DNA from: Candidatus Eiseniibacteriota bacterium
GTDB taxonomy: Bacteria > Eisenbacteria > RBG-16-71-46
NCBI GenBank assembly: GCA_016215625.1
Contig: JACRIW010000081.1
Location: 62,001-126,000, forward strand
Direction: 5' to 3'
DNA: 64,000 nt
Positions 30,028-53,885 of this stretch are shown here, piece after piece (positions within the stretch are counted from its first letter, which is position 1; every line of letters starts with the position of its first letter). The notes under the pieces are model-generated. The model was not told the origin of the DNA and searched no databases. It worked only from the letters and a program-made list of their open reading frames with translations. The translations under genes were made by a program, and so were the position numbers.

Positions 30028-33000
30028 GTGACGCAATCCCCCTTCCGGCTCCCGCTGCGACGCGTCCGACTCCTTTGTAGCGCCCTGCTCGCCCTGACGT
30101 TGTCGGCCGCCCCGGAGCGGGCGCAGGCCGAGGGCAGCGCCACGCTCACCCAGAGCGGGGGCTACCGGCCGTTCCTCGAATACCGGAACGACTTCACGCA
30201 GAACTCCGCGCTCCAGCGCCGCACGATCGTGAAGGTGTACGCCGCCGCCGGCGACACCATCCTGCTCGGCTCGAGCGCCAACGGCGTCGGGGCCGGCCGC
30301 ATCCGCTGGCGGCAGCCGAGCGGCGCCGCGGGCCTCGCCTCGGCCTCGATCGGCGTCATCGCGACGCTCGCCCAGGAGCAGGCCGGGCCGCTGCCGAACG
30401 CGGGCGGCTTCCGCCCGGCCGCGATCCCCGTGACGGCCGGGCAGGCGGGCGTCTGGGAGATCTCGTTCGTGAGTCCGGACTCGACGAGCGACTTCAATCC
30501 GCCGCAGGTACCGGTCGGCAACGCGTGGACGCAGCGCGCGGACGTCGGCTACGTGTGCGCGTGGGACGTCACGGTGCGCAACAGCGCCGGGGTCACGGTG
30601 CCGGGACGGGCATTCGTGACCAACCTCGCGATGAACATGGGCGGCCCCGGGGCGTCGCTCTCGAGCCAGGTGTGGCTGCAGACGCGCGACGGCTTCCGCT
30701 ACCGCGTGGACGTGAACGGGGCGCAGCCGTTCGGCTTCCATCTGTTCGCGAACAACAAGGGCTTCAAGGACGCGCTCGGCCTGCCGCTCTACCACTCGGT
30801 CGAGCTGGCGGGGTCCCGGGTGCAAAACCCGGACTTCGCCGACACGCCGGCCGACGTGACGCACAAGATCTTCTTCAACTCCCCGGCGCTCGACCTGCCG
30901 TCCTCGGCCGCATCGGCGTCCGGCCCGACGTGGCTGCTCACGACGCCGTTCGTGGCGACGGTCAGCAACTTCCGCTTCGTCGGCAGGGACGGCACGGAGG
31001 GGCAGGCGGCCGCCGGCATCGGCGGCATCTTCTCGTTCCAGAGCACCGGCGTGGGCAACTTCGTCGTGCGCATCGACCTCGACGGCGACGGCAACTTCGC
31101 GGGCGCCGTGGACCGCGCGCTCGTCGGCGTCGCGAGCGTCGGCACGAACTCGATTCCCTGGGACGGCCTCGACGGCCTCGGCCGCCGCGCCAATCCCTCG
31201 GGCGATCCCTCGAACGTCTTCGCCCGCGTCACGCTGCTCGGCGGCGAAGTGCACTTCCCCTACATCGACGCCGAGAACAACGTCAACGGCATCGTCATCG
31301 AGCGCCAGACGGGAGCCGGCGCGCCGGACTACACCATCTACTACGACGACCGCCCGGTGGGCGGCGCCGCGAGCCTGCCGCCCACCGGCGAGAACAGCCT
31401 CTCCGGCGGCCACCGCTGGAGCAGCTTCCTCGGCGACGTGCGCGGCATGGACACGTGGACCTACGTGCCGGGCGCGACGCTCGAACTCGAGACCGAAGTG
31501 GTCGTGCGCGACGCCGACCTCGAGCTCGTGAGCAAGACGCACTCGCCCGATCCGTTCGTCGCGGGGCAGACCGTCGGCTGGACGATCGTCGCCCGCAACA
31601 ACGGCCCGGACTCGGTGTTCGCGGCCGCCGTGCTCGACACCGTGGACGCGCGCGTCTCGAACGTCACGCTCGCCGGCTCCTCGAACGTCGGCGGCACGAT
31701 CCTCGGCACGAGCGTCACGGGCCAGGTCTTCCGCGCCACGATGGACCTGCCGCCGGGCGGCACCGCCACGTTCCAGCTCGCCGGCACGCTGTCACCGTCG
31801 GCCTCGGGCGCGCTGCTCAACCGCGCGCTCGCGCTGCGCGGCGACGACCAGGGTGACGCCGACGATCCGCTGCGCATCGGCGCCGGCAACAACAGCAAGC
31901 GCGACACGGCGCAGGTCATTCCCGCCGCGCCGGACGTCGCGCTCGACAAGTCGCACACGGGCGCCACGTTCACGCTCGGCACGCGGGCCACGTGGAACTT
32001 CGCGATCACCAACCTCGGCAACCTCGCCACCACCGGCGACGTCGTCGTGCGCGACACGCTGCCGGCCGGCATCAAGGCGGCGGGTGCTTCGTCGAACGAC
32101 CGTCACTGGTCGTTCGCGATCAGCCCCGACAGCTCGATCGTGACCGCGACCTACGACGTGCCCGTCGCGATCTCCGCGTCGACGGGCTTCGCGCTCGACG
32201 TCTTCGTGCTCGAGCAGGCGGTGCCGTCGGTGACCAACTTCGCCACGGCGAGCACGCCCGGCGACGACGATCCCACGAACGACCGCGACTCGGACACCGT
32301 GCCGATCGCGGCGCGCACCGACCTCGCGATCGACAAGTCGCACGCGACGGCGCCGTTCGTGGTCGGTTCGAACGGCGTGTGGACGTTCACGGTCTCGAAC
32401 CTCGGGCCGGCCTCCTCGCTCGGCACGACGACCGTCGTGGACACGCTCCCGGCCGGCACGACGTACGTGAGCGGCTTCGGTGAAGGCTGGCTCGTCACGC
32501 ACTCGGGCGGCATCGTGAACGCGCGCTACCTGCCGGCGATCCCGCCGGGCGAGTCGCGCTCGTTCGCCGTCACGGTCGCGGTGAACGCGGTGGCCTACCC
32601 CGCCGTCACCAACGCCGCGGTCGTCGTGAACCCGACCGACCTGAACCCGGACAACAACCGCGACACGGACACCGTGCCGGTGGCCGGGCTCGTGAACCTC
32701 GCGATCGACAAGAGCCACGCGGTCACGCCGTGGCAGGCGGGCTCGACCGGCGTGTACGACATCGCCGTCTCGAACACCGGCAACATCCCCTCCTCGGGCA
32801 CGATCACCGTGCGCGACACGCTGCCCGTCGGCCTCACGTTCTCGAGCGCCGCGCCCCAGTCCCCGTGGACGATCACGCACGCGGGCGGCATCGTGACCGC
32901 GACGACGAACGCCGCGATCGCCGCCGGCGGCACGAGCAGCTTCTCGTTCACCGTGAACGTCTTCCCGGCCGCGTTCCCGAGCGTGACCAACGTCGCGACG

Positions 33001-36000: not shown

Positions 36001-38424
36001 GTCGAAGGACGCGTGGACTTCCGCAGCAAGTCCGACGGCGAACTCGGCGGCTACCCGCGCGACCGCTTCATGGACGCGCTCGGCGACGTCGCGTTCGACT
36101 CCGACAGCGGCAAGACCTCGGGCGGCGCACGCGGCGCGCTGTTCGGCACGGGCGAAGTCGGCCACCTCGGCTCGCTCACGCTGCGCTACGACACGCAGGC
36201 CGATCCCGACCGCCGCTTCATGCGCGACATCCGTCCGGACGACGGATACGACGTGTGGGGCGACGCTTCGCTGCTCGAGTTCGGCGCCCGCAGCCGCAGC
36301 CGCCTCTACGCGCGGCTCGACCGCGGCGAGTCGTTCGCGATGTTCGGCGACCTCTCGACGCCTCGCGCCGAAGCGCAGCAGCTCGGCGCCTTCGACCGCA
36401 GCGTGAACGGCGCCATGGGCCGCATGCAGGCCGGCGCGCTCGAGTTCTCGGGCTTCGCCAGCCGCGGCACGAGCCACCAGCAGATCGACGAGATCGCCGG
36501 CATGGGCGTCTCGGGTCCGTACGCGCTCTCGCGCACGGACGCCGTGATGAACAGCGAGCGCGTCGAACTCGTGACGCGCGACCGCAGCCAGAGCGCGCGC
36601 ATCCTCGCCCGCGTGCCGATGACGCGGTTCGTGGACTACACCGTCGAAGCGTTCACGGGACGGCTGCTGTTCCGCCGTCCGGTGCCGAGCCTCGATCACG
36701 ACCTGAACCCGGTGTTCGTGCGCGTGACGTACGAGACCGAGTCCACGGGTGACGAGTACTGGCTCGCGGGCGGCCGTGCGGCGCTGCACGCCGGCGGCCT
36801 CACCGTGGGCGGCTCGTTCGCGCGCGACGACGATCCCGCGCACGCGCGCGACCTCGCCAGCATCGACGCACGATTCACGCCGATCGCGGGCGTGTCGCTC
36901 GTCGCGGAGTTCGCGCGCACGGATTCCGCGCGCGGCGGACTCGAAAGCGGGAACACCGACGCGAAGCGCGCCGAGCTGACGGCGGTGCGCGGCGGCTCCA
37001 GCCTGCGCGCTTGGGGCTTGCGCGTGGACTCGGGCTTCGACAATGCGAGCGCGGGCGTGAGCCCGGGCCGCGAGGAGTTGGGCGGCACGGCGCGCTTCGC
37101 CGTGGGCGCGAAGACGGCGCTGTTCGCGACCGCGCTCCGCACCCGCGACATCGTCACCGACGGCCAGCGCCAGGGGCTCGACGCCGGCGTCTCGCAGGTG
37201 ATGGGCAAGTACCTCACGGCCGAGGCGGCGTTCCGCTCGGCGGAAGAAACGAACATCGCGGCGAGCGCGCTCACCGCGGGCGCCACGCCGAGCGAGACCC
37301 GCAGCGTGCGCGGCCGGCTCACGGCTTCGTTCCCGGGCCTGCGCAAGGCGACGGCGTTCGGCGAGTTCGAACAGGATCTCGAGGTCACGGCGCAGCGCCG
37401 CGCCGCGGTCGGGGCCGACGTGCCGCTCGTGAAGAGCGTCCGCGCGTACCTGCGCCACGAGAACATCGCCTCGTTCGCCGGGCCGTTCGCGCTCAACGAA
37501 ACCCTGCAGCAGGCGAACACGGTGGTCGGGTTGAGCGGCGACGGCAGCCGCGACCTCTACGGCGAGTACCGCGCGCGCGACGCCTTCTCGGGACGCGACG
37601 CCGTGGCGGCGATCGGCCTGCGTCATCGCTGGGAGATCGAACGCGGCCTGTTCGTCGACGGCGCGCTGGAGCGCGTCAGCCCCGTGCGCGGCGCCGGCCC
37701 CGAGGCCAATGCGATGGCGTTCGGCGTCGAGTACACGCGCGACCCGCTCTGGAAGGGCACGGCACGGGCGGAGCTGCACGCCACGCCCGGCGAGAGCCAC
37801 TGGCTGCTCAGCGGCGGAGTCGCGCGCAAGCTCACGCGGGACTTCACCGCGCTCGGCCGCGGTCAGTGGACCGAAACGGGCACCGACGACGAGATGCGCG
37901 CGCGTCTCGGCGTCGCGTACCGCCGCACCGACGACAACCGTCTCGACGCGCTCGCGCGCTACGAGTTCGGCCGACTGCACGGGCGGATGGGCGGCATGGA
38001 CTACCGCCACGAGCACATCGCCTCCGGACACGCGGCGTGGCAGGCGAACCGTGCGCTCGCCGTGGACGGGCAGCTGGCGCTGCGCTGGCTCGAACAGCGC
38101 GAGTCGCGCTTCAAGGCCATGACCGCCGTGCAGCTCGCCGCCGGACGCGCGCGGTGGCAGTTCTCACCGCCGTGGGATGCGGGCCTGACCGGCCGCGTGC
38201 TCACGTCGAATCACTTCGACGAGAAGCAGTTCGGCGCCGGCGTCGAACTCGGCCGTGCGCTGGCGAAGAACCTGCGCGCGGCGGCGGGCTGGAACGTGTT
38301 CGGGTTCCGCTCGGCCGGCCTCGCGGCCGCCGACGTGACCGACGCCGGCCCGTACGTGTCGTTCGGTTGGAAGTTCGACGAGACGCTCTTCGGCGGTCTC
38401 GCGAAGGGAGGGGATGCCCAGTGA
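30028..38424 (+). CDS. giant surface protein: DUF11 repeats, SdrD-B-like domain and outer-membrane barrel
   Basis: A 2798-residue protein. Signal peptide residues 1-33 (L-L-A-L-T-L-S-A-A, cleavage near A-Q-A). Residues about 35-495 are an uncharacterised beta-rich head. Ten DUF11-type repeats of 123-138 residues follow (about 498-1760), with key residues near 502, 640, 769, 894, 1020, 1143, 1267, 1391, 1515 and 1641. A SdrD-B-like domain (I-T-G-K-L-Y-V-D-C-D, 1771-1845) and a link lead to a barrel from about 1990 to 2798, with alternating strands and G-R-L-L-F-R-R-P-V-P-S-L-D. So stalk and membrane anchor appear in one chain. GTG 30028 is chosen because it precedes the signal peptide and has GAGG upstream. 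It overlaps the OmpA gene. Confidence 0.85.
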   Translation: MTQSPFRLPLRRVRLLCSALLALTLSAAPERAQAEGSATLTQSGGYRPFLEYRNDFTQNSALQRRTIVKVYAAAGDTILLGSSANGVGAGRIRWRQPSGAAGLASASIGVIATLAQEQAGPLPNAGGFRPAAIPVTAGQAGVWEISFVSPDSTSDFNPPQVPVGNAWTQRADVGYVCAWDVTVRNSAGVTVPGRAFVTNLAMNMGGPGASLSSQVWLQTRDGFRYRVDVNGAQPFGFHLFANNKGFKDALGLPLYHSVELAGSRVQNPDFADTPADVTHKIFFNSPALDLPSSAASASGPTWLLTTPFVATVSNFRFVGRDGTEGQAAAGIGGIFSFQSTGVGNFVVRIDLDGDGNFAGAVDRALVGVASVGTNSIPWDGLDGLGRRANPSGDPSNVFARVTLLGGEVHFPYIDAENNVNGIVIERQTGAGAPDYTIYYDDRPVGGAASLPPTGENSLSGGHRWSSFLGDVRGMDTWTYVPGATLELETEVVVRDADLELVSKTHSPDPFVAGQTVGWTIVARNNGPDSVFAAAVLDTVDARVSNVTLAGSSNVGGTILGTSVTGQVFRATMDLPPGGTATFQLAGTLSPSASGALLNRALALRGDDQGDADDPLRIGAGNNSKRDTAQVIPAAPDVALDKSHTGATFTLGTRATWNFAITNLGNLATTGDVVVRDTLPAGIKAAGASSNDRHWSFAISPDSSIVTATYDVPVAISASTGFALDVFVLEQAVPSVTNFATASTPGDDDPTNDRDSDTVPIAARTDLAIDKSHATAPFVVGSNGVWTFTVSNLGPASSLGTTTVVDTLPAGTTYVSGFGEGWLVTHSGGIVNARYLPAIPPGESRSFAVTVAVNAVAYPAVTNAAVVVNPTDLNPDNNRDTDTVPVAGLVNLAIDKSHAVTPWQAGSTGVYDIAVSNTGNIPSSGTITVRDTLPVGLTFSSAAPQSPWTITHAGGIVTATTNAAIAAGGTSSFSFTVNVFPAAFPSVTNVATVEGGGDGDPFDNRDADPTNVLGQPDMAIDKSHSGSFTAGADANWRVFVQNLGNANAVQPVVRDTLPAGVSFISGTGASWTFVAVGQVVTASYSGTLVPNATSLFTLNVHLDVNVPTTLTNVAAVEVPGDSDPSNNRDTDAASVNLLPDLTLDKSHTGSFAIGTNGTWTVTVTNLGPGATTSAFAVLDTLPAGVTFVSGSGAGWTFAHSNGIVTAGHTGVLAANANTSFTLTVLVGQAAYPQVTNVAAVIDGGDVTPGNNRDTDTVPVLGAPNLTIDKRHTTAFVAPGAGTYTMVLTNVGTLPTSGTITVRDTLPAGLTFTSGAGALFSVNAAGAIVTATTNAVIAAGDSAKFDVVVAVAQEAVPGVTNAAVVSGGGDITPIDNRDVDPTPVAGSPDLVIDKTHPGTFTPGLLSNWRVEVRNLGTVATTGATVVRDTLPAGVTFASANGTGWTFSVTGQVVVATHGGTIAANATTFFLVNVRPTAQAVPSVTNVATVTTPGDGNPGNDRDTDTAPVNALPDLALFKRHTGALSVDGTTLYTLTVRNVGAGPTYDISTVLDTLPIGVSYLRTESGDAGWTVASFGRIVSGQYAPVIAPGDSVSFTFVASISAAAAPEAINSAVVTTPGDGNPANDRAVDRAPVDFRSLLTVNKTASPELVQLGDVVTYAVQVRNDGNVAVGDLVVNDRLPAGFVYLPGSATVDGRTIADPTGAPGPQLAFPIGFLGAADDLTLRYRVAVGAGANMGRNVNVAVAQSVQRDQTSPPSSAAVEVRGGVFADEGIITGKLYVDCDCEHDGAQGHEELGIPGVRLYLEDGTSVVTDVEGKFHFPNVRPRTHVVRVDVSTLPKGAKLAAFGTRHAGESTSQFVDLHKGELFRVDFAEVSHDPAVLAQVKARRERGEVGGTFVTSTVTAGGATDRLTVTRDVNGATASGGMDIPAAVASGERTVQVISGGGAASEANAAGGAGGDERVIVRISNEHGRVDTMLAVFPTPKAKFQMSGLVEGRVDFRSKSDGELGGYPRDRFMDALGDVAFDSDSGKTSGGARGALFGTGEVGHLGSLTLRYDTQADPDRRFMRDIRPDDGYDVWGDASLLEFGARSRSRLYARLDRGESFAMFGDLSTPRAEAQQLGAFDRSVNGAMGRMQAGALEFSGFASRGTSHQQIDEIAGMGVSGPYALSRTDAVMNSERVELVTRDRSQSARILARVPMTRFVDYTVEAFTGRLLFRRPVPSLDHDLNPVFVRVTYETESTGDEYWLAGGRAALHAGGLTVGGSFARDDDPAHARDLASIDARFTPIAGVSLVAEFARTDSARGGLESGNTDAKRAELTAVRGGSSLRAWGLRVDSGFDNASAGVSPGREELGGTARFAVGAKTALFATALRTRDIVTDGQRQGLDAGVSQVMGKYLTAEAAFRSAEETNIAASALTAGATPSETRSVRGRLTASFPGLRKATAFGEFEQDLEVTAQRRAAVGADVPLVKSVRAYLRHENIASFAGPFALNETLQQANTVVGLSGDGSRDLYGEYRARDAFSGRDAVAAIGLRHRWEIERGLFVDGALERVSPVRGAGPEANAMAFGVEYTRDPLWKGTARAELHATPGESHWLLSGGVARKLTRDFTALGRGQWTETGTDDEMRARLGVAYRRTDDNRLDALARYEFGRLHGRMGGMDYRHEHIASGHAAWQANRALAVDGQLALRWLEQRESRFKAMTAVQLAAGRARWQFSPPWDAGLTGRVLTSNHFDEKQFGAGVELGRALAKNLRAAAGWNVFGFRSAGLAAADVTDAGPYVSFGWKFDETLFGGLAKGGDAQ
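31516..35310 (+). repeat. ten tandem DUF11-type coding repeats
   Basis: Each unit begins with a D-K-S-H-like tetrapeptide and ends with G-D-x-x-P-x-N-N-R-D-T-D-T-V-P-like residues. The distances between successive tetrapeptide positions are 414, 387, 375, 378, 369, 372, 372, 372 and 378 bases, all multiples of three. Inner units are most alike; the first and last are divergent. Confidence 0.85.
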
Positions 38425-39602
38425 ATCGCACGCACACGCTGATCCGCTCGCTGTTCACGCTCGGCATCCTGTTCGCACCCTTCTCGGCGGCGCCGGCCTC
38501 CGCCGCCGCGAGCGACGGGCTTCCCGCCACGCTGCACGCTCCGGCGCAGCGCATGAGCGACGAAGTGATCGCCGCGGACTTGGCGGCGATCGACGGCTGC
38601 CGCGCCGCGCTCGCCACCGCGGTGCAGGAGAAGGGCCCGCAGCCGTGGCGCCAGGCGTTCGCCGCCGCGTGGCTCGACGCCGCGCGCACGGAGTACACCG
38701 ATCACGACCGCACGGGCTTCGCCGAAGGCGCTTACCAGCGCGCGCTCGCGATCGTCCGCGAGATCGAATCGGGCGCCGCGCCGGTGGACCACCAGTCGGT
38801 GCCCGTCGCGGCCGACAGCATTCCCGGCAGCATGCGCGTGAAGCCGGAGCTGTGGACGGAACTGCAGCGCCTCAAGCGCCACGAGGGCTTCAAGTGCGCC
38901 GAGGTGCAGATCGCGCGCATGGAAGTGCAGCTCGCGTGGACGGGCAACGAGCAGGTGGACATGGGTGACTGCCACGCCTCGCCGCATCTCGCCGAGGCGC
39001 AGCGCCTCGCGTCGGAAGCGCGGGCCCTGGAAGAAGTGTGCAACGTCACGCCCGTTCCGCCGGCGCCCAAGCCCGTCGTGGTCGAGACGCCGAAGCCGGC
39101 CGTCCCGACGCGTGAAGAGCTGCGCATTCCGCGCAACGTCCACTTCGCGCTCGACAAGCACTTCATCTCGGCCGAATCGCGCAAGGTCATCGAAGGCATC
39201 GTGGCGCTCCTCCAGAAGTACCCGAGCATCCGCGTGCGCCTCGAGGGCCACACCGACTCGCGCGCGAGCGTCGCGTACAACCTGGCGCTGTCGCAGCGCC
39301 GCGTGAACGCGACGAAGGCGGTGTTCCTCGCCCTCGGCGTGGACTCCACGCGCATCAGCACGGACTTCAAGGGCAAGGGCGACCTGTACGCCGAGGAGAA
39401 GGACACCCGCGGCTTCGCGCTCAACCGCCGCGTCGAGATGGTGTTCGTGGACTCGGACGGACGCGACATCAAGGGCGAGCGCCAGGAAGGCGACCTGCAG
39501 CTCGAAGGCACGACGCCGGTGCAGCCGAAGAAGCCCGCGGTGAAGAAGCCGGCCGCGAAGCCGGCCGCGAAGCCCGCGGCGCCCGCGAAGCCGAAGCCGT
39601 AG
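38421..39602 (+). CDS. OmpA-family outer-membrane/peptidoglycan-binding protein
   Basis: Periplasmic or outer-membrane protein of 393 residues. Signal peptide about 1-33. Residues about 45-140 form an alpha-helical region. A Pro-rich linker (P-P-A-P-K-P-V-V-V-E-T-P) precedes the OmpA domain from about 234, with F-A-L-D-K-H-F, E-G-H-T-D-S-R and L-S-Q-R-R-V; D279 and R294 are the peptidoglycan-contacting residues. The last 30 residues are Lys/Ala/Pro repeats. It would tether the coupled barrel protein to the wall. GTG 38421 overlaps the upstream stop (GTGA) and has GGGAGGGG ahead. Confidence 0.9.
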   Translation: MNRTHTLIRSLFTLGILFAPFSAAPASAAASDGLPATLHAPAQRMSDEVIAADLAAIDGCRAALATAVQEKGPQPWRQAFAAAWLDAARTEYTDHDRTGFAEGAYQRALAIVREIESGAAPVDHQSVPVAADSIPGSMRVKPELWTELQRLKRHEGFKCAEVQIARMEVQLAWTGNEQVDMGDCHASPHLAEAQRLASEARALEEVCNVTPVPPAPKPVVVETPKPAVPTREELRIPRNVHFALDKHFISAESRKVIEGIVALLQKYPSIRVRLEGHTDSRASVAYNLALSQRRVNATKAVFLALGVDSTRISTDFKGKGDLYAEEKDTRGFALNRRVEMVFVDSDGRDIKGERQEGDLQLEGTTPVQPKKPAVKKPAAKPAAKPAAPAKPKP

Positions 39603-39628
39603 CTTCGGCGAAGACTCACGCGACGACG

Positions 39629-39667
39629 ACCGGCGTCCGCCACCACGGCGGGCGCCGGTTCGTTCTT
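39629..39667 (+). terminator. hairpin terminator after the OmpA gene
   Basis: Thirteen-base arms (39629-39641, 39647-39659) with one G-T pair, followed by TCGTTCTT. It separates the first barrel/OmpA unit from the following DUF11 genes. Confidence 0.65.
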
Positions 39668-39768
39668 CCGAGCCGGACGCCCCCCACCGGCAGCGACAGC
39701 ACGCATCCGGCCGGGCGCGAACCGCCGTGCATCCCGCCACTTCGGCCGGGCAAAGTGCGATTGATCGC

Positions 39769-39985: not shown

Positions 39986-40492
39986 ATGCGTGCATTCCTC
40001 ACGCGCGGCCTGTTGGCCGTGCTCACCGCCGTGGCGTCGTTCGGCCCGGCGATGGCCCAGGTCGACAACCCCGTGCACGTCGCGCTCACCGCGCAGCGCG
40101 TGACGGTGGTGAACGGCCGCGAGACGTTCGCTCCGGCGAACCAGGCGAAGCCCGGCGAAGTGCTCGTCTACCGCGCCACGTGCAGCAACGATGGGCACGA
40201 GACGGTGCACTCGGTCATGGCGACGCTGCCGATCCCGGCAGGCCTCGAGTACCTCCCGCGCACCGCGGCTCCCGCGGTCGTGCAGGCGTCGCTCGACGGC
40301 AAGACCTTCGCGCCGGTGCCGCTCGTGCGGCGCGTGCGCGGAGCCGACGGCCGCGAAGTGGTGCAGGAGGTCCCGGCCTCCGAATACCGCTTCCTGCGCT
40401 GGTCGGTCGGGACGCTCGCTCCGAAGGCCGCCCGCACGGTGACCGCTCGCGCCCGCGTGGCGCCGGTGCAGGTCGCCGCGCTCGTGCGCTGA
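39986..40492 (+). CDS. small secreted single-domain DUF11-like protein
   Basis: A 168-residue exported protein. Signal peptide 1-24, cleaved near A-M-A-Q. The mature part has the DUF11 pattern: V-L-V-Y-R-A-T-C-S-N-D-G-H, then L-P-I-P-A-G-L-E-Y-L-P, and L-R-W-S-V-G-T-L. One DUF11 domain and no barrel or anchor. It may be a subunit or cap for the longer DUF11 proteins. Start ATG 39986 has GGGAGG upstream. It is 161 bases ahead of the next DUF11 gene. Confidence 0.82.
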   Translation: MRAFLTRGLLAVLTAVASFGPAMAQVDNPVHVALTAQRVTVVNGRETFAPANQAKPGEVLVYRATCSNDGHETVHSVMATLPIPAGLEYLPRTAAPAVVQASLDGKTFAPVPLVRRVRGADGREVVQEVPASEYRFLRWSVGTLAPKAARTVTARARVAPVQVAALVR

Positions 40493-40548: not shown

Positions 40549-40653
40549 TGCGCGCACGCACGTGCTCCCGCACGCGTGCTCGCGCCGCACGGGTGTGACG
40601 CGGCATCCCGAAGCTGCGTCGTTCGGAACTCACTCCACCCTCGGAGAGTGCTC

Positions 40654-43406: not shown

Positions 43407-43494
43407 GGCATCCGCTCCGCGGCGCCGGCCGGACCGGGAACCCTGGCCCGGACACCGGTCCGGCGCCCGCGGGGCAACGGAAGGCATCATCCGC

Positions 43495-46400
43495 ATGACC
43501 GCACGATCCCCACATCGCGAAGCAGCACGCGACGCCCACGCGCGAATCCGCGCGTGGGCGCTGGGGCTTGTCGCGCTCGCGCCGCTGCTTGCGCTCGCGC
43601 CACTCCGGGCACACGCGGCCATGCCGCCGGCGGGCACGCCGGTGGACAACACGGCCACCGCGACCGCGCACGTGGTCGCGAACGGCGTGTGGGTGAATCC
43701 CGCGAGCAACACCGTGCGCACCGTCGTGCAGGCGCTCGACGCCGTCACGCTGCGGTACGCGCGCTCGCTCCTCGCCTCGCCCGGCGAGACGATCGCCTTC
43801 GCGCACGTGCTCGCGCACGCGGGCAACACGAACGCGACCTACACGCTCACGCTCGCGCAGGACGGCGCGGACGGCTTCGACCTGTCGGCACCCGCGCTGC
43901 TGCGCGACGTCGACGGCGACGGCGTGCCGAGCGGTCCGGACACGCCGATCGCGAACGGCGCCACGGTCACGCTCGCGAGGGGCGATTCGCTCGCGCTGCT
44001 CGTCACCGGCACCGTGCCCGCGAACGCGCCGGCGTTCGCGCACGCGCGCGTCACGCTCGCGGCCGCGACGCCGGGCGGCACGCGCGACGCGGTCACCGAC
44101 ACCGTGCGCACCGGCGCGGCGGGCGCTCCGCCGGCGCTGGCCTTCTGGTCCGCGGGCTTCGGCACGGTCGTGCGCTCGAGCGCGCTCGGCGCGCCGCTCC
44201 ACGTGCAGGCGGAAGCGGCCGCGTGCAACACGAACCCGGCGCTCCGCGACACGGTGGCGCTCACGCTGAGCAGCCGCCTGACCGGCGACTCGGACGTGTT
44301 TCTCGCGATCGAGACGGGACCGAACACCGGCGTGTTCCGCACGCCGCCCACGCCCGTCACGCAGTCCCCGCCCGTGAGCGCCCCGGCGAACGACGGCGTG
44401 CTCATGCAGTCCGTGGGCGACGAGGTCGAGGCGCTGCTCACCGGCTGCGGCGGCGCCGAGACGCGCGCGCACGTGTGGATCCAGCCCGGCGGCGTCGTGT
44501 TCGACGCACGGTCCGACGCGCCGGTCGCGTTCGCGCGCGTCGCGCTCGTGGACCTGACGGGCGCGGGCAACGGCGGCGCACCCGGCGGCCCGGCGCGCGT
44601 GCTCGACTGGGACGGCGTGAGCGCCGCGCCCTCGGAGGTCGTGACCGACGCGAGCGGGCGGTTCGAGTTCCCGTCCGTCGCGGCGAGCACGTACGCCATC
44701 CGAGTGACGCCGCCGGCCACGCACACGTTCCCCTCGACCGTGCCGCTCCCGGCGCTGAGCGCGAACCGCACGCTCGACGCGGCCGGCTCGTACGGCGGGG
44801 CGTTCGCGATTTCTCGGGACGGTGATCCCGTGCGGCTCGACGTGCCGGTGGACGGTGTCGTCACCTGGGCGCTGTTCGCCGAGAAGACGGCGTCCAAACT
44901 CGAAGCCGAGTGGGGCGACCTGCTCGAGTACCGCGTGAACGTCGCGAACCGCTCGGACAGCGCGCTCGCCGCGGTCACGCTGCGCGACCGGCTGCCGCAC
45001 GGCTTCGCGTACGTGCGCGGCACGGCGCGCGTGAACGGCGCCGCGGCCGAGCCCGCGACGGACACGAACGGCGCGCTCACCTTCGCGCTCGGCGCGATGG
45101 CCACGGGCGATCGCACCGAGATCCGCTACGGCGTGCGCGTGGGTGCGGGCGCACCGGAGGGCGACGCGATCAACCGCGCGATCGCCGCCGCCGGCACGCT
45201 CGAGTCCAACGAGGCCACGGCGCGCGTGCGCGTGCGCGGCGACGCGTTCGGAGGCGAGGCGCTGCTCACCGGCACGGTGTGGTACGACGCCGACCGCGAC
45301 GGCGTGCGCGGCCCGGGCGAGGGCGGCCTGCCGGGCGTGCGGCTCTACCTCGACGACGGCTCGTTCGCGGTGACCGACGAGCACGGACGCTGGAGCATGG
45401 CCGGTCTTTCGCCGCGCACGCACGCGCTCAAGCTCGACGGCACGACGCTGCCCCCGACGGCGCGCGCGGCCGCGACACACCGCCACGAGCGCGACACGCC
45501 CGGCCTGCGCTTCGTCACGCTCACGCGCGGCGAGCTCGCGCGCGCGGACTTCGCGGTGACCGGCGACACGACGGCGTCGCGCCAGGTGCGCGAGCGCCAG
45601 CTCGCGTCGGCCACGGCGAACGAGGCCGCGCGCGTGCTCCAGCGCGGGCTCTCCCCGCTCGCGCCGCGCGCTCCGGTGGGCGACACGCGCGCGCTGCCCG
45701 CGGCGCGCGTGACGAGCGGCGAGAGCGCCCCGGCGCCCGAGCGCACGGCGTCGGGCGACGTGGCGTCCCCCGCGACGGGCGGTGTGGAAGCGCTTCCCGC
45801 GGCCACGTCTCCCGCGCTGGCGCTCGAGCAGCTGCTGCCCGCGCTCGAGCCCGCGCTCGGCTTCGTCGGCATCGGCGCGCACGACACGATCGGCGTGACG
45901 CAGCTGTCCGTGGTCGCCAAGGCGCCCTTCGGCTCGCGCGTGGCGCTGCGCGTGAACGGCATGCCGCTGCCCGACTCGCGCGTCGGGCGGCACTTCACCG
46001 CGCCGCGCACGGGCGTCGAGGCCTGGGAGTACATCGGCGTCGCGCTGCAGAGCGGCGACAACACGCTCGAACTGTCGGTGCCACGCACGGGCGAGCGCGT
46101 GATCGCGCACGTCGTGGCGCCCGGACCGTTCGCGCGCCTCGAACTGCACGCGCCGCGCCGCGCGCACGCGGACGGCCGCGCCGTCGTGCCGGTCGAGGTG
46201 CGCGTCACCGACCGCGACGGCGTGCCGATCGCGGCGCGCACGATCGTCACGCTCGAAGCGGGCGCCGCGCGCTTCGCCGCGCCCGACCTCGACCCGGTCA
46301 CGCCCGGCTGGCAGACCGCGATCGAGGGCGGGCGCGCGCGGGTCGCGCTGCTCGCGCCGGCCTCGCCCGGCGAGTCGCGCGTCGTGGCGACGAGCGGCGA

Positions 46401-48936
46401 CGTGCGCGCCGCGGCGACGATCGCGTTCGTCCCCGAACTGCGGCCGATGCTCGCCGTGGGCGCACTCGAAGGGGTGCTGCGGCTGCGCCGCTACGAAGGC
46501 GCAGCCGGCGCAGCCGGCGCCTCCGGCGCCCGCGTCGCGGGGGGCGCCGCGCGGCTCGCGTCGTTCGAAGCGCCCGTCACGCAGTTCACGACCGAGAGCC
46601 GCGACGGCCGCACGGCCGCCGACGCACACGGCGCGCTCTTCATGAAGGGCCGCGTGCAGGGCGACCTGCTGCTCACGCTCGGCTGGGACTCCGACCGCGA
46701 GCGCGAGCAGCGCCAGTTCCGCGACCTCACGCCCGACCGCGGCTTCCCGGTCGCGGGCGACGCGGCCACGCGCGGCTACGAAGCGCAGTCCACCGGCCAG
46801 CTGTACGCGAAGCTCGAACGGCGCGACGCCTCGCTGCTCTACGGCGACTATGTGACGGGTTCCGGCGGCGGCGGACCCGCCTCGTCGTTCCGCTCGCTCG
46901 GGCGCTACGGCCGCTCGCTCACCGGCGCGCTCGCATCGTGGGAACGCGGCGCGCTCGCGGTGCACACGTTCACGAGCCGCGACCGCGCTCACCGCGCCGT
47001 GGAGGAACTCCGCGGCATGGGCACGAGCGGGCCTTACGTGCTCGCGCACGCACCGCTGGTCGAGAACTCCGAGCGCGTCGAGCTCATCGTGCGCGACCGC
47101 GCGCAGCCCTCGATCGTGCGGAGCAGCACGTCGCTGCAGCGCTTCACCGACTACACGCTGGAGCCGCTCACCGGGCGGCTGCTGCTGCGTGCCCCCGCGC
47201 CGAGCCTGGACGCGGACCTGAACACGGTGTGGCTGCGCGTGAGCTACGAGCGCGACGGCGACGGTGCGCCCGCGTGGGTGCACGGCGCCGACGCCCGCGT
47301 GCGCGTGCATCCGCGGCTCGAACTGGGCGGCGTGGCGGTCGACGACCACGACCCCGCGGCGCCGTACGAGCTGCGCAGCGCGTCCGCCGAATGGCGCGCC
47401 GGCGCGCACACCGCCCTCGCCGCGGAGTGGGCCGCGACGCGTCACGTGGGCGAGGCAGCGGCCGACGCCGGCCGCGTCGAACTCACGCACGAGTCCCCGC
47501 GCGGCACCGCGCGCGCCTGGGGTGTCTCGACCGCGCCGCGCTTCGACAACCCGTCGGCCGGCGCCGGCGCGGGCCGCAACGAAGCGGGCGCCACGCTCGC
47601 GCTGCGCCTGCCCGACCGCTCGCGGCTCGCGATGGAAGCGCTCTTCAGCGGCGACGCGGAAGGCCGCGAACGCCGCGCGGGCGGGCTGCTGTCGCTCGAC
47701 CGCGCCCTGAGCACGGCGGTGCGTGGCGAGTTCGGCGTGCGCGTCGCGGGCGTCACGCGCCGCGACGCCGCATCGGATCCCACGACGGCCTCGGTGCGTG
47801 CGCGGCTGTCCGCGCAGTGGCCGAAGCACCCGGAATGGAGCGGCTACTCTGAGCTCGAACAGGACACGCGCGCGTGGGAGCGCCGCATGGCCGCGGTGGG
47901 CGGCGAATACCGCTTCACCGCACGCGGCCGGCTCTACGCGCGGCACGAGCTGCTCTCGAGCCTCTCGAGCGCGTGGGCGATGTCGAACACGCAGAGCCGG
48001 GCGGCGACCGTGGTCGGCGTGGACGCCGACGTCGCGCACGACGCCCACGTCTTCAGCGAGTACCGCATGAGCGACGTGATCGCGGGGCGCGAAGGCCAGG
48101 CCGCGGTGGGTTTGCGCAACGGCTGGAAGATCGCCGACGGCATGCGGCTCTCGACCACGTTCGAGCGCGTCACCCCGCTCGCGGGCAGCGACGCCGGCCC
48201 GACGACCGCGCTCACGGGCGCGGTGGACTTCACGGGCGACGACGTGTGGAAGGGCTCGTCGCGCTTCGAGGTGCGCACGAGCCGCGCGAGCGACCAGTTC
48301 CTGCAGGGCATGGCGGCCGCCGTGCGGCTCGATTCGGCGTGGACCGCGCTCGGCCGCCAGCTGCTCACGCTCACGCGCACGCACGGCGCGGGCGCCGAAG
48401 CGCGCGAGCGGCTGCAGCTCGGCTTCGCCTGGCGCCCGAACGGCCCGTACGAGGCGCTCGGCCGCTGGGAGTTCCGCTACGACCGCGAAGCCCCGAACGC
48501 CGCGGCGGGCATCGGCCGTGTGCGCCACGTCGCGAACATCGCGGCGCTCTCGGGCTCCGCGACGAAGCGCGCCTGGGAAGGCACGCTCGGCTGGGCGGGC
48601 AAGCTCACGCGCGAGCAGGAAAGCGCGCGCGTCACCGCGGGTGGCGCGCAGTGGGTGCACGGACGGATCGCGCGCGCACTCGGCGCGCACTGGGACGCGG
48701 GCGTCACCGGGAGCGTGCGCGCCGGCCGCACGCTCGCCGAGCGCGAGTACGGGCTCGGCGCCGAGGTCGGCCGCGAGCTCGCGCGCGGCGCGTGGCTTTC
48801 GCTCGGCTTCAACCGCTTCGGCTTCGACGACGACGAACTCGCGGGCGAGTCGTGGACGCGCGCGGGCGCGTACCTGCGCGTGCGCATGCGCTTCGACGAA
48901 CGCACGTTCGCGAACGAACCGGAGGTGCGCCCGTGA
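43495..48936 (+). CDS. second giant surface protein: DUF11, SdrD-B-like, Ig-like and outer-membrane barrel
   Basis: A 1813-residue protein. Signal peptide about 1-42 (L-G-L-V-A-L-A-P-L-L). M-P-P-A-G-T-P-V-D-N-T-A-T-A-T starts the module shared with the preceding gene (43-250). A carboxypeptidase-regulatory-like domain (340-420), one DUF11 domain (about 465-580), an SdrD-B-like domain (T-G-T-V-W-Y-D-A-D-R-D-G-V, 587-650), a low-complexity linker and Ig-like domains (796-980) follow. The C-terminal barrel (about 980-1813) shares S-G-P-Y-V-L, N-S-E-R-V-E-L, G-R-L-L-L-R-A-P-A-P-S-L-D-A-D-L-N with the first giant. It overlaps the next gene by GTGA. Confidence 0.85.
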   Translation: MTARSPHREAARDAHARIRAWALGLVALAPLLALAPLRAHAAMPPAGTPVDNTATATAHVVANGVWVNPASNTVRTVVQALDAVTLRYARSLLASPGETIAFAHVLAHAGNTNATYTLTLAQDGADGFDLSAPALLRDVDGDGVPSGPDTPIANGATVTLARGDSLALLVTGTVPANAPAFAHARVTLAAATPGGTRDAVTDTVRTGAAGAPPALAFWSAGFGTVVRSSALGAPLHVQAEAAACNTNPALRDTVALTLSSRLTGDSDVFLAIETGPNTGVFRTPPTPVTQSPPVSAPANDGVLMQSVGDEVEALLTGCGGAETRAHVWIQPGGVVFDARSDAPVAFARVALVDLTGAGNGGAPGGPARVLDWDGVSAAPSEVVTDASGRFEFPSVAASTYAIRVTPPATHTFPSTVPLPALSANRTLDAAGSYGGAFAISRDGDPVRLDVPVDGVVTWALFAEKTASKLEAEWGDLLEYRVNVANRSDSALAAVTLRDRLPHGFAYVRGTARVNGAAAEPATDTNGALTFALGAMATGDRTEIRYGVRVGAGAPEGDAINRAIAAAGTLESNEATARVRVRGDAFGGEALLTGTVWYDADRDGVRGPGEGGLPGVRLYLDDGSFAVTDEHGRWSMAGLSPRTHALKLDGTTLPPTARAAATHRHERDTPGLRFVTLTRGELARADFAVTGDTTASRQVRERQLASATANEAARVLQRGLSPLAPRAPVGDTRALPAARVTSGESAPAPERTASGDVASPATGGVEALPAATSPALALEQLLPALEPALGFVGIGAHDTIGVTQLSVVAKAPFGSRVALRVNGMPLPDSRVGRHFTAPRTGVEAWEYIGVALQSGDNTLELSVPRTGERVIAHVVAPGPFARLELHAPRRAHADGRAVVPVEVRVTDRDGVPIAARTIVTLEAGAARFAAPDLDPVTPGWQTAIEGGRARVALLAPASPGESRVVATSGDVRAAATIAFVPELRPMLAVGALEGVLRLRRYEGAAGAAGASGARVAGGAARLASFEAPVTQFTTESRDGRTAADAHGALFMKGRVQGDLLLTLGWDSDREREQRQFRDLTPDRGFPVAGDAATRGYEAQSTGQLYAKLERRDASLLYGDYVTGSGGGGPASSFRSLGRYGRSLTGALASWERGALAVHTFTSRDRAHRAVEELRGMGTSGPYVLAHAPLVENSERVELIVRDRAQPSIVRSSTSLQRFTDYTLEPLTGRLLLRAPAPSLDADLNTVWLRVSYERDGDGAPAWVHGADARVRVHPRLELGGVAVDDHDPAAPYELRSASAEWRAGAHTALAAEWAATRHVGEAAADAGRVELTHESPRGTARAWGVSTAPRFDNPSAGAGAGRNEAGATLALRLPDRSRLAMEALFSGDAEGRERRAGGLLSLDRALSTAVRGEFGVRVAGVTRRDAASDPTTASVRARLSAQWPKHPEWSGYSELEQDTRAWERRMAAVGGEYRFTARGRLYARHELLSSLSSAWAMSNTQSRAATVVGVDADVAHDAHVFSEYRMSDVIAGREGQAAVGLRNGWKIADGMRLSTTFERVTPLAGSDAGPTTALTGAVDFTGDDVWKGSSRFEVRTSRASDQFLQGMAAAVRLDSAWTALGRQLLTLTRTHGAGAEARERLQLGFAWRPNGPYEALGRWEFRYDREAPNAAAGIGRVRHVANIAALSGSATKRAWEGTLGWAGKLTREQESARVTAGGAQWVHGRIARALGAHWDAGVTGSVRAGRTLAEREYGLGAEVGRELARGAWLSLGFNRFGFDDDELAGESWTRAGAYLRVRMRFDERTFANEPEVRP

Positions 48937-51900
48937 GCGGGACGTTCCGCCGCGCCCGGCACGCGATCGCCGCGGCGCTCGCGTGCGCCGCACTCTTCGC
49001 CGCGCCCGCGGCCGCGCAGGTCGTGCGCGCGTTCACGCCGCGCTTCAGCGTGAACCAGCCCGGCGACATCACGCTCATCGGCAACACGGTCATGTCGTGC
49101 AACGGCGGCGGCAACTGCAACAACTCGCGCGCCGGAACGGGCAACGCGATCAACAACAACGACAACACCATGGCCTACGTGGACATCGACGGCGTCTCGA
49201 CCACGGTCAGCTCGAGCACCGCCACGCTCACGCTGCCCACGGGCGCGACCGTGACCTGGGCCGGGCTCTACTGGGGCGGCTACACCACGAACGCGCTGCG
49301 CAACACGGTGAAGATCGCGACCCCGGCCTCGAGCGCGTACTCGACGTACACCGCCACGCGCCTCGACGCGAGCGGCAGCGCCTACCAGGGATTCGCCGAG
49401 GTCACCTCGCTCGTGCGCGCCGCGGGCGCGGGCGTGTACCGCGTGGCCGACGTGCGCTCGACCCCCGGCACGACGAACGTGCACGGCGGCTGGTCGCTCG
49501 TGGTCGTGGACTCGGACGCCACCCAGCCGGCGCGCAACCTCGTCGTGTTCGACGGCTTCGCGCTCGTCTCGGGCACGACCACCGTGAACATGACCGTGAG
49601 CGGCTTCGTCACGCCGCCCGCCGGCACGGTCAACTCGAAGCTCGGCGTGGTCGCGTTCGAAGGCGACCTCGGGTTCACCGGCGACAGCTTCCGGCTCAAC
49701 GGCACCGCGCTCACCGACGGCGCCAATCCCGCGGACAACTTCTTCAACAGCTCGATCAGCCAGCTCGGCGCGCCGTTCACCGCGAAGAACCCGAACTACC
49801 TGAACCAGCTCGGCTTCGACTGCGACCTCGTGCAGGCGAACGGCCTGCTCGCCAACGGCGCCACGAGCGCGAACGTCTCGCTGACGACGAACGGCGACAC
49901 GTACTACCCCGGCGCGGTGACTTTCGCGACCGACCTGTACGCGCCGGTGTTCGACGCCGCCAACTTCTCGAAGAGCGTGGCCGACCTGAACGGCGGGCTC
50001 GTGCGCCCCGGCGACGTGCTCGAATACACGGTCACGATGCGCAACAACGGTCTCGACCACGCGATCGACTGCGCGATGGCGGACACGCTGCCCTCCAACG
50101 TCACGTACGTCGCGGGCTCGCTGCGCGTGAGCGCGGGACCGAACGCGGGCGCGAAGACCGACGCTGCGGGCGACGACGCGGCGGAGTACGTGGGGGCCTC
50201 GCGCAGCGTGGTCGCGCGTCTCGGCACGGGCGCGACCGCGGCCGCCGGCGGCCGGATCGACGTCGCGACGACCACGAGCGTCGTGTTCCGGGTGACCGTG
50301 AACGCGCCCCAGCCCACGGGGACCGCGGTGAGCAACCAGGCGGCGCTCGCCTTCACCGGCCAGCAGTCGGGCGTGGACTTCGCCGCCCGCTCCGACGGCG
50401 ACCCCGCCACCGGCGGCACGCAGTCCACGATCGTCACGGTGACCGCGGCACGCATCGCGGGCACGGTGTTCGAGGACGCGAACTACGGCGGCGGCGCGGG
50501 CCGCTCGCTCGCCGCGTCGTCCGGCGCGCCGCGCCCCGGCGCGCGCGTCGAGCTGTACGACGGCACGAGCGGCGCGTTCCTGCAGCTCGCGCGCACGGAC
50601 GGCTCCGGCGCGTACGTGTTCGACGGCTGGCCGGCGGGCGCGTACACCGTGCGCGTCGCGAACGCGAGCGTGCGCTCGTCGCGGCCCGGCGCGATCGCCG
50701 GACTGCTGCCGGTGCAGACGTGGCGCACGGACGCCTCGAGCGGCGCGCCCGTCGCGGTCACCGACCGCGTGGGCGGCGAGAACCCCGCGATCGCCGACGC
50801 CGACTCGAACACGACCGCCGCCGCACTCGCGAGCCTGGCCGCGCCCGCGGCGACACCGCAGTCGGTGACGAACGTGACGCTCGGCGCGGCCGACGTGACC
50901 GGCGTGGATTTCGGCTTCAACTTCGACACGATCGTGAGCACGCGCGACGCCGGCGCGGGCACGCTGCGGCAGTTCCTGCTCAACGCCAACGCCCTCGCGA
51001 ACACCGGCCTCGCGCAGGCGGGGCTCCCCGCGGGCGGCGAGACGAGCGTGTTCATGATTCCCGACGGCCTCGCCCATCCGGGCCTGCGCGCGGGGCTCGC
51101 GAACGCGCTCGTGAACGGCGTCGCGCGCATCGTGCCGCTCACGCCGCTGCCCGCGATCACCGACGCGGCGACGCGCGTGGACGGCGGCACGCAGACCGCG
51201 AACGTCGGCAACACGAACGGCGGCGTCCTCGGCGCCGCGCCCACGGTGGGCACCGACGAGATCGCGCTCGCCGCGGTGTCCGCGCCCGAGGTCGAACTGC
51301 GCGACGCGAACGGCCTCGCGCTCGGGCTCGACGTGCAGGGCGCGAGCGTCACGGTGCGCGCGCTCGCGGTGCTCGGCTTCGGCAACGCCACGGGGAGCAA
51401 CAACGACGCGTGCGTGCGCGTGGGTGCGGCCGCGAACGCGTTCACGCTCGAGGACGCGGTGCTCGGCGCCACGGCGCGCGCGTTCGCGGACTCGGGCGCC
51501 GCGCTGCGCGCGAGCGGCGACCTGCTGCGCGCCGTGGGCGGCGACGCCGGCCTCGTGCAGCGCTCGCTGCTCGGCTTCGCCGCAGGCAGCGCCGTGACGC
51601 TTTCGGGCGCGAGCAACGGCTGGACGATCCAGACGAGCGAGATCCGCGGCGTCGCGATCGGCAACGGCGCGCGCGGCGCGGTGTCGCTCGAGGCGAGCGG
51701 CACGCTCGCGATCACGTCGTGCTGGATCGGCGAGTCCGAAGGCAACGGCGTGGACGCGCGCACGAGCACGGGCGGCGTCACGCTCACGAACCTCACCGTG
51801 CGCCGCAACGGCCTCGGCACGGCCGCGGCGACCGCGACCGCCGGCGTGCGCTTGGGCGGCGCGGGCGGCACGGTGCAGCGCTGCGAGATCGCGCTCAACG

Positions 51901-53885
51901 TGGGCGCGGGCGTGCAGGTCACGAGCGGCGCGAGCAACCACGTGCTGTCGCGGAACTCGATCTGGGGCAACGGCACGGTGGCCGGCAACGGCGGCGGCAC
52001 GGCGAGCGGACAGATCGGCATCGACCTGCAGGCGGCGGCCGACGACGCGGCGCGCGGCACGGCGCCCTACGTGACGCGCAACGACAACGGCGACGGCGAC
52101 GCGGGCGGCAACGCGCTGCTCAACCATCCCGTGATGGACTACGCCGTGCTCTCGAACGGCAGCTTCACCGTGAGCGGCTGGGCGCGACCGGGCAGCGTCA
52201 TCGAACTCTTCGTCGCCGACGGCGACCCGAGCGGCTTCGGCGAGGGACGCACGTACGTGACGACCGTGACCGAAGGCTCGGCCGCCGACCTCGACGGCAC
52301 GTCGAGCACGTACTCCGGGCTCTACAACGGCGTGAACCAGGGCACGGACAACACGCGGCGCTTCCGCTTCACGATGCCCGCGCCGCCCAACGTGAGCGCG
52401 TCGGTCGTGCTGACTGCAACCGCGACCGTGACCGGCACCGGCACGTCCGAGTTCTCGGGCGGCGTGCCCGTGACGACGGGCGTGAGCGTGAGCGGCTGGG
52501 CGTACTCCGACGCCGACCACGACGCGCAGCGCGACGCGGGCGAAGCGGGCACGGGCGTGGCGCTGTGGGCGAAGCTGTTCGCCGCCGGTTCGCCGTCGGC
52601 GTCGCAGGTCGCGGCGGTGGACGGCGCGAGCGGCGCGTTCGCGTTCACGTTCGTCGCCTCGGGCTCGTACGTGGTGAAGCTCGACACGTCGGCCGACGGC
52701 GCGGACTCGACCGCCGACGTGCCCGCGGGCTGGGTGCGGACCGAAGCGCCCACCGGCGAGCGCGGCCCGCTCGACGTGGCCGCGACCGACGTGAGCGGCG
52801 CGACGTGCGGGCTGTGGCACGGCAGCGTCGTGCGAGGCGTGCGCTTCCGCGACGACGGCGCGGGAGGCGGTGTCGCGAACGACGGCGCGCGCTCGGGCGC
52901 CGAGGGCGCGATCGCCGGTGCACGCGTGCGGCTGACGAGCGCCGCCTGCGGCGCGGCGCCGTGCGACAGCGCGCTCACCGACGGCGCGGGCGCGTTCGCG
53001 CTGTGGCTGCCGCACACGCTCGCCGGCGCGAACGTGAGCGTCGTCGCGCCAGTCGGCGTGGGCGCGATCGCGACGGGCGGGCGCGTGGGCGACAGTTTTG
53101 GCACCTACGATCGCGCGGCGCCGGCCGTGACGTTCACCGCGGCCAGCGGCCGCGAATATCGCAACCTCGCCTTCGGCGAAGTGCCGCGCAACGCCTGGAT
53201 CGCGAATGGCGCGCGCACCGTGTCGAGCGGCGCGGCCACGAGCTACGCGCACACGTTCACCGCGGCGAGCGGCGGTTCGGTGAGCTTCTCGTCGGCGGGC
53301 GTCGCGACGCCCGCGCTCGCGGGCTGGAGCATGACGCTGTATCGCGACCTCGACTGCGACGGCGTGCTCGACGCCGGCGAGAGCGCGATCGCGCCCGCGA
53401 GCGCCATCGCGCTGGCCGCGGGCCAGAGCGTGTGCGTGATCGCGACGCACGCGACGCCCGCCGGCGCGCCCACGGGCGCGCGCGAGCAGGCGACGCTCAC
53501 CGCGAGCTTCACCTACGCGAACGCCGCACCCGCGCTCGCGTCGAGCGAGCAGCTGCAGGACGTCACCACCGTGACGCTGGCGAGCGGGCTCGTGCTCACG
53601 AAGACCGTGGACGTGGCGAGCGCCCGTCCCGGCGACTACCTCGTGTACACGATTTCCTACGAGAACCCGGGCACGGGCGCGCTCTCGAACCTCGTGATCC
53701 GCGACGCGACGCCCGCGTGGACGGTGTTCGACTCCGCGACGTGCGCCGCTGCCGCCGACGGCATCACCGGCTGCGCGCTCACGCAACCCGCGCCCGGCGC
53801 GAATGGCACCGTGACCTGGACGCTCGCCGGCGCACTCGCGCCCGGCGGCCGCGGCAGCGTGAGCTATCGCGTGCGGGTGCAGTGA
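48933..53885 (+). CDS. large secreted protein with DUF11, SdrD-B-like and beta-helix domains
   Basis: A 1650-residue exported protein. Signal peptide about 1-29 (A-A-A-Q). Residues 30-340 are a conserved-looking head (A-G-L-Y-W-G-G-Y, G-G-W-S-L-V-V-V, N-L-V-V-F-D-G-F). A DUF11 domain lies at about 350-500, an SdrD-B-like domain at about 507-600, then a region with parallel beta-helix character (G-L-D-V-Q-G-A-S-V-T-V-R, V-L-S-R-N-S-I-W-G-N). Further SdrD-B-like domains (V-S-G-W-A-Y-S-D-A-D-H-D) and a C-terminal DUF11 domain (about 1550-1650) follow. No barrel or sorting motif: it probably docks on the coupled barrel protein. GTG 48933 is fixed by the GTGA overlap. Confidence 0.82.
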   Translation: MSGTFRRARHAIAAALACAALFAAPAAAQVVRAFTPRFSVNQPGDITLIGNTVMSCNGGGNCNNSRAGTGNAINNNDNTMAYVDIDGVSTTVSSSTATLTLPTGATVTWAGLYWGGYTTNALRNTVKIATPASSAYSTYTATRLDASGSAYQGFAEVTSLVRAAGAGVYRVADVRSTPGTTNVHGGWSLVVVDSDATQPARNLVVFDGFALVSGTTTVNMTVSGFVTPPAGTVNSKLGVVAFEGDLGFTGDSFRLNGTALTDGANPADNFFNSSISQLGAPFTAKNPNYLNQLGFDCDLVQANGLLANGATSANVSLTTNGDTYYPGAVTFATDLYAPVFDAANFSKSVADLNGGLVRPGDVLEYTVTMRNNGLDHAIDCAMADTLPSNVTYVAGSLRVSAGPNAGAKTDAAGDDAAEYVGASRSVVARLGTGATAAAGGRIDVATTTSVVFRVTVNAPQPTGTAVSNQAALAFTGQQSGVDFAARSDGDPATGGTQSTIVTVTAARIAGTVFEDANYGGGAGRSLAASSGAPRPGARVELYDGTSGAFLQLARTDGSGAYVFDGWPAGAYTVRVANASVRSSRPGAIAGLLPVQTWRTDASSGAPVAVTDRVGGENPAIADADSNTTAAALASLAAPAATPQSVTNVTLGAADVTGVDFGFNFDTIVSTRDAGAGTLRQFLLNANALANTGLAQAGLPAGGETSVFMIPDGLAHPGLRAGLANALVNGVARIVPLTPLPAITDAATRVDGGTQTANVGNTNGGVLGAAPTVGTDEIALAAVSAPEVELRDANGLALGLDVQGASVTVRALAVLGFGNATGSNNDACVRVGAAANAFTLEDAVLGATARAFADSGAALRASGDLLRAVGGDAGLVQRSLLGFAAGSAVTLSGASNGWTIQTSEIRGVAIGNGARGAVSLEASGTLAITSCWIGESEGNGVDARTSTGGVTLTNLTVRRNGLGTAAATATAGVRLGGAGGTVQRCEIALNVGAGVQVTSGASNHVLSRNSIWGNGTVAGNGGGTASGQIGIDLQAAADDAARGTAPYVTRNDNGDGDAGGNALLNHPVMDYAVLSNGSFTVSGWARPGSVIELFVADGDPSGFGEGRTYVTTVTEGSAADLDGTSSTYSGLYNGVNQGTDNTRRFRFTMPAPPNVSASVVLTATATVTGTGTSEFSGGVPVTTGVSVSGWAYSDADHDAQRDAGEAGTGVALWAKLFAAGSPSASQVAAVDGASGAFAFTFVASGSYVVKLDTSADGADSTADVPAGWVRTEAPTGERGPLDVAATDVSGATCGLWHGSVVRGVRFRDDGAGGGVANDGARSGAEGAIAGARVRLTSAACGAAPCDSALTDGAGAFALWLPHTLAGANVSVVAPVGVGAIATGGRVGDSFGTYDRAAPAVTFTAASGREYRNLAFGEVPRNAWIANGARTVSSGAATSYAHTFTAASGGSVSFSSAGVATPALAGWSMTLYRDLDCDGVLDAGESAIAPASAIALAAGQSVCVIATHATPAGAPTGAREQATLTASFTYANAAPALASSEQLQDVTTVTLASGLVLTKTVDVASARPGDYLVYTISYENPGTGALSNLVIRDATPAWTVFDSATCAAAADGITGCALTQPAPGANGTVTWTLAGALAPGGRGSVSYRVRVQ

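Follow-up and report, generated by a model that had tools for sequence, protein, structure and literature searches.

A two-module DUF11 locus in Candidatus Eiseniibacteriota, with giant barrel proteins and a candidate split-domain fibre cassette

The window analysed in this work is a 64,000-nt stretch of contig JACRIW010000081.1, in which an earlier note had described a six-gene DUF11/SdrD-B surface system at 30028–53885. All six reading frames were found on the plus strand, to which all window coordinates below refer. Gene 1 encodes giant 1 (30028–38424; 2798 aa; Sec signal peptide by eye) and gene 2 an OmpA-family protein (38421–39602; 393 aa; OmpA domain at residues 242–331 by Pfam). Gene 3 (39986–40492; 168 aa) encodes a single DUF11-like domain, gene 4 (40654–43251; 865 aa) the proposed repeating subunit, gene 5 giant 2 (43495–48936; 1813 aa), and gene 6 (48933–53885; 1650 aa) the proposed tip. 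Starts with a signal peptide, judged by eye, lie at 30028, 38421, 39986, 40654, 43495, and 48933; the ATG of gene 3 sits within a longer frame starting at 39755, and the start of gene 4 within a frame opening at 40576. GTGA starts had been noted for both genes that follow a barrel gene, and they are present where the giant 1 stop meets the OmpA gene start (38421–38424) and where the giant 2 stop meets the gene 6 start (48933–48936). Because such an overlap is common at the barrel stops of relatives (NTGA in 39 of 76 related loci), we read both as ordinary translational coupling.

Pfam and a structure model agreed with the domain layout given in the earlier note, namely head, stalk, and barrel in one chain, with OmpA, DUF11, and beta-helix/DUF11 proteins as neighbors. 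Giant 1 runs from an N-terminal head through 10 DUF11 repeats and an SdrD_B-like domain to a C-terminal barrel (Pfam: ten DUF11 stretches and one sub-threshold SdrD_B). Giant 2 starts with a short element that we call a tag, followed by CarboxypepD_reg-like, DUF11, SdrD_B, and Ig-like domains and a barrel (Pfam: DUF11 and SdrD_B). Gene 6 has an N-terminal head, SdrD_B, a beta-helix, and a C-terminal truncated DUF11 domain, or catcher, with no tag (Pfam: SdrD_B, DUF11, and Beta_helix). The remaining Pfam matches were OmpA in gene 2 (2e-12), one DUF11 barely above its cut-off in gene 3, and DUF11 plus NPCBM_assoc in gene 4. Every one of the 15 DUF11 matches in the 4.2-Mb assembly fell within this locus. 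Elsewhere in the window lie an M12-type metallopeptidase carrying FG-GAP repeats (60004–63285, past the end of the locus) and a protein of 2274 residues whose sole assignment is a weak alpha-amylase catalytic match (17191–24015).

A barrel within the last 800 residues of both giants, as previously predicted, was corroborated in two ways. Over their last ∼790 residues the two proteins are homologous (35% identical, 378 bits), with the barrel domain spanning 36097–38391 in giant 1 and 46612–48894 in giant 2, and an AF2 model of giant 2 was barrel-like. The model, computed for residues 860–1813 with an alignment of 63 sequences (mean pLDDT 81.5, pTM 0.74), contained an Ig-like domain followed by over 30 long antiparallel strands. 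A Foldseek search with it returned mainly outer-membrane barrels at low TM-scores, none of them close, with matches to a Deinococcus S-layer complex, MtrB-type proteins, SusC, BtuB, LptD, and FimD. No Pfam family covered the barrel domain in the six proteins or in 11 barrels, a PDB sequence search with the barrel gave nothing meaningful, and whole giant 1 had no PDB match at 0.001. We take the C-terminal domain of the giants to be an outer-membrane barrel of its own family, with a predicted 30 or more strands.

DUF11 is a stalk domain of fibrillar adhesins (PMC9210967, PMC12617251), and proteins of this locus belong to the DUF11/CLIPPER family by Pfam matches above the cut-off. The profile of the ten tandem repeats of giant 1 (31516–35310) matches the crystal structure 9IFR (E 1.2e-8), and equivalents of its reference positions Lys715, Asp748, and Asn806 are present in this locus. 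Lys and Asp are invariant in the repeats (10/10), and Asn is aligned in nine of the 10. When genes 4–6 were aligned to 9IFR, the reactive Lys and catalytic Asp fell in the catcher and the Asn in the tag.

We scanned genome contigs with the barrel alignment and recovered 79 loci, some from metagenome bins, in Eisenbacteria, Gemmatimonadota, Verrucomicrobiota, Pseudomonadota, Nitrospirota, Acidobacteriota, Armatimonadota, and Balneolota. Named isolates among them include Massilia aurea, Variovorax boronicumulans, Roseateles aquatilis, and Perlucidibaca aquatica. Stalk and barrel share one chain at 63 of the 79 loci and are encoded by neighboring genes at 12 others; an OmpA domain follows the barrel, adjacent or fused, at 26 of 79. 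The barrel tree has two deep clades with 100% support. One (clade A, OmpA-type) holds giant 1, whose nearest relatives are OmpA-type, with OmpA as a neighbor or fusion partner; the other (clade B) holds giant 2 and is accompanied by genes 3 and 4 upstream and by gene 6. Two changes of module label suffice on this tree. Because the tree and the neighborhoods split the locus, the region is best described as two modules, A (giant 1 and OmpA) and B (genes 3–6), and the single six-gene unit of the earlier note is rejected. A conserved neighborhood was found in relatives; its absence, which the note had named as a refuting outcome, did not occur. The gene order 3-4-5-6 of module B is kept in 31 of 37 loci, and all partners are present in 28 of the 32 fused loci with sufficient flank. 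The module B design is found in at least eight bacterial phyla.

Relatives also showed how the parts can be rearranged. One locus carries modules A and B in reverse order (L035), and another has the giant 1 and OmpA counterparts fused (L036). In several Betaproteobacteria (L098, L112, L114, and L118–L124), separate genes lying side by side encode the stalk and the barrel, and the next gene is an OmpA gene, whose product in L098 and L114 is a lipoprotein by eye; judging from these loci, a covalent link between stalk and barrel is not obligatory. In three class-level relatives (L039–L041), the giant chains have Calx-beta-like repeats and place an OmpA domain after the SdrD_B stalk and ahead of the barrel, an order that makes an extracellular stalk hard to explain there and weighs against the reading proposed below. 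Acinetobacter haemolyticus p4 (L127:7546–20714) has a barrel chain with a tag, followed by OmpA, and a gene 4 counterpart apparently split into several frames.

The ends of the module B proteins proved to be the most informative part of the locus, and the complementary split that they show is absent from the earlier note. Gene 4 carries an N-terminal tag (APPAGTPIGNQATATY...; 40753–40887) equivalent to the missing last DUF11 strands and a C-terminal catcher (42904–43248), a DUF11 domain cut short ahead of the Asn strand, with Lys and Asp conserved. Giant 2 carries only a tag (MPPAGTPVDNTATATAHV...; 43621–43752; 26 bits), and gene 6 only a catcher (53589–53882), which ends at DUF11 model position 98, at the stop codon. 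All 37 gene 4 relatives have C-termini that stop at model position 97–99 and mature N-termini that match the model from ∼100–106 to 132–140; the detected C-terminal DUF11 domains of gene 6 relatives stop at 95–98 (38/38). As a control, internal DUF11 domains reached position 125 or beyond in 214 of 300 cases, and terminal domains in the same control stopped by 100 in 36/36 gene 4 and 34/34 gene 6 proteins. Joining the gene 4 catcher and tag raised the score by a mean of 15.8 bits (minimum 9.6), compared with a maximum of 9.3 in 740 shuffles. The split-domain hypothesis was framed after the data had been seen, and the model behind this score had as its training set internal domains of these same proteins, with tags and catchers left out. 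When a narrower model was built from just the repeats of giant 1, joining gave almost no signal (mean −0.2 bits vs. −1.8 for shuffles), which is why the model of complete internal domains was used instead.

Tags were similarly selective in where they occurred. A model of the gene 4 tags detected the giant 2 tag in 35 of 37 clade B barrel chains (1/370 shuffles) and had no match in OmpA-type chains (0/22), gene 6 (0/40), gene 3 (0/39), or unrelated frames (0/400). The count of 35 depends on that model; with the model of complete internal domains, tags were detected in just seven of 39 clade B barrel chains. The isopeptide residues are distributed over the two parts: Lys and Asp are each conserved in 37/38 and 38/38 catchers of the two sets, and Asn in the tags of gene 4 (37/37) and of giant 2 relatives (32/36, with Asn absent from the other four). 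At the level of sequence, the catchers of genes 4 and 6 and the tags of gene 4 and giant 2 are complementary halves of one DUF11 domain. The DUF11-like domain of gene 3 lacks both the catalytic Asp and the last strand. Gene 3 relatives (e.g., window:39986–40492) share a conserved insert in this domain, ..LDG..F..PL.R....VP..EYR.LRW.

A structure prediction was made for a construct in which the natural linker, read through with TGA as Trp, connects the gene 4 catcher to the tag and first domain of giant 2. Both parts were modeled with high confidence (tag pLDDT 91–96), and the linker was disordered. The pTM of 0.67 was about equal to the ordered fraction (independently floating parts would give ∼0.44 by our own estimate), suggesting that catcher and tag are placed relative to each other. 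The giant 2 tag was modeled as strands outside the first domain. Foldseek hits to this model were tandem Ig-like proteins, including the CfaE–CfaB pilin fusion and RbmA.

Thermus thermophilus HB8 has the module B cassette in one row on plasmid pTT27 (L125:13421–27777; NC_006462.1). It consists of a gene 3-like gene (TTH_RS10905), a gene 4 counterpart (TTH_RS10910; tag 70 bits, catcher ending at 97), a stalk with tag and SdrD_B (RS11750), a probable barrel judged by a weak match (9.4 bits) and its position (RS10920), and a gene 6-like gene with a catcher ending at 97 (RS10925). The stalk and barrel are on separate genes, and the tag and catcher logic is the same as in module B. Existing annotation calls the products hypothetical or DUF11 proteins. 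With the cassette in HB8, the proposed assembly is testable in a standard laboratory strain.

We consider it probable that module B is a split-DUF11 fibre cassette of chaperone-usher-like design and that module A is an OmpA-tied stalk-barrel. In module A, a long isopeptide-type DUF11 stalk would be joined to a large outer-membrane barrel, and the OmpA protein would tie the giant 1 barrel to peptidoglycan. In module B, the distribution of parts (gene 6 with a catcher only, gene 4 with both, giant 2 with a tag only) suggests that donor-strand complementation links the subunits head to tail, perhaps with a covalent bond. The catcher of gene 4 or gene 6 would accept a tag, either from the next gene 4 or from giant 2, giving a fibre with gene 6 at the tip, gene 4 subunits along its length, and giant 2 at the base, which Lys–Asn bonds between subunits might lock. 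Gene 3, catcher-like and Asp-less, may guard free tags in the periplasm as a cap or chaperone, and the giant 2 barrel could be an exit pore, an anchor, or both. The pairing in trans, the covalent bond, the number of subunit copies, the export route, and the roles of genes 3 and 6 are parts of this proposal that we infer. The surface fibre or adhesin assembly suggested previously is supported in this two-module form, with a putative surface location, and does not hold for the six genes as one unit.

Barrel-anchored adhesins could also account for such genes without any polymerization. The giants would then be single-chain stalks, and genes 3, 4, and 6 would encode separate secreted adhesins or matrix proteins; the DUF11 truncations would be harmless, and the tag would be part of the first domain. 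DUF11 is known as a fibrillar adhesin stalk domain (PMC9210967, PMC12617251), and giant 1 and its relatives, without tags and with complete repeats, fit this description well. However, it leaves unexplained the exact complementarity of tags and catchers, their selective carriage, and the way the partners travel together across phyla, and the tag was modeled as strands outside the first domain. We regard this account as unlikely.

Nothing in the sequence forbids a gene 4 chain, which bears both halves, from closing the split domain on itself to give a clamped or ring-like protein and no fibre. Giant 2 has a tag without a catcher, however, and gene 6 a catcher without a tag, so that both need a partner; moreover, gene 4 ranges from ∼436 to 977 aa among relatives, yet both ends are retained. 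Closure within one chain therefore seems distinctly improbable. The position of the barrel, C-terminal to a passenger-like stalk, recalls autotransporters, and separate stalk and barrel genes in several Betaproteobacteria and Thermus would suit two-partner secretion, in which the barrel only exports the stalk or a downstream protein and the DUF11 ends play no part in assembly. Yet no autotransporter or two-partner barrel family was matched, and the tag and catcher pattern would go unexplained, which makes secretion alone very improbable.

The split-DUF11 cassette that we favor can be set against several known systems. By analogy, the parts list of module B is that of a chaperone-usher pilus, assembled from unrelated proteins. 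Type 1 and P pili share the proposed logic of a tip with a groove only and subunits with an N-terminal donor strand and a groove, as well as a small periplasmic partner, a large outer-membrane barrel, and a single gene cluster; the incomplete Ig-like domain of those pili, completed by a neighbor's N-terminal strand, may have its counterpart in the complementary halves seen in the sequences here. No Pfam match to chaperone, usher, or pilin families was found in the six proteins or 11 barrels. Here, unlike in those pili, the last donor strand sits on the barrel protein itself, the domain in question is a DUF11 bearing isopeptide residues, and gene 3 would cover a tag rather than lend a strand. 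SpyTag/SpyCatcher is an engineered split isopeptide domain with halves from two chains; module B would be a natural and conserved version, with the bond proposed. Inverse and classical autotransporters (type V) likewise combine an Ig-like stalk and a barrel in one chain, whereas the C-terminal barrel here is much larger, belongs to its own unnamed family, and in module B comes with a four-gene cassette and separate subunits; Pfam matched no type V barrel family at the C-terminus in the six proteins or 11 barrels. Pfam also found no sortase sorting signal or anchor family in the six proteins, whose catcher-bearing members end at a DUF11 strand, and no adhesive domain above the cut-off of the kind expected at a fibrillar adhesin tip (gene 6 had AgI_II_C2 at E 0.08 only).

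Two published systems come close in other respects. The archaeal thread filament Saci_0406 is a head-to-tail donor-strand fibre with a proposed covalent intersubunit bond, linking Asn57 with the N-terminal amino group of the subunit two positions along (PMC9715654); it differs in being a single pilin without a Pfam domain, from an archaeon with no outer-membrane barrel. DUF11/CLIPPER adhesins (9IFR, PMC12617251) are of the same family, have the same Lys-Asp-Asn set, and also use OmpA anchors, but their bond lies inside one intact domain, and an inter-chain split is not described in the parts of PMC12617251 consulted here. Within open-licence papers, DUF11 with donor strands or split-domain logic was not found described. 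T11SS was considered and set aside, as the matches concerned DUF1194 and mentioned DUF11 just once, in passing. It is quite possible, if short of probable, that module B represents a previously unrecognised class of diderm fibre, with a natural split isopeptide domain, sortase-free covalent joining, its own giant barrel family, and a dedicated cap, spread over at least eight phyla.

DUF11 proteins are common, and for most of them no assembly route is known. Should the proposed split-domain mechanism hold, many "DUF11 domain-containing proteins" would become parts of a chaperone-usher-like fibre system, in which tip, subunit, cap, and base could be identified and a covalent lock between subunits may exist. 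Such a system would also be nature's counterpart to engineered tag and catcher pairs, would supply further pairs of this kind, and would assign a function to the very large outer-membrane barrels, whose family is unnamed.
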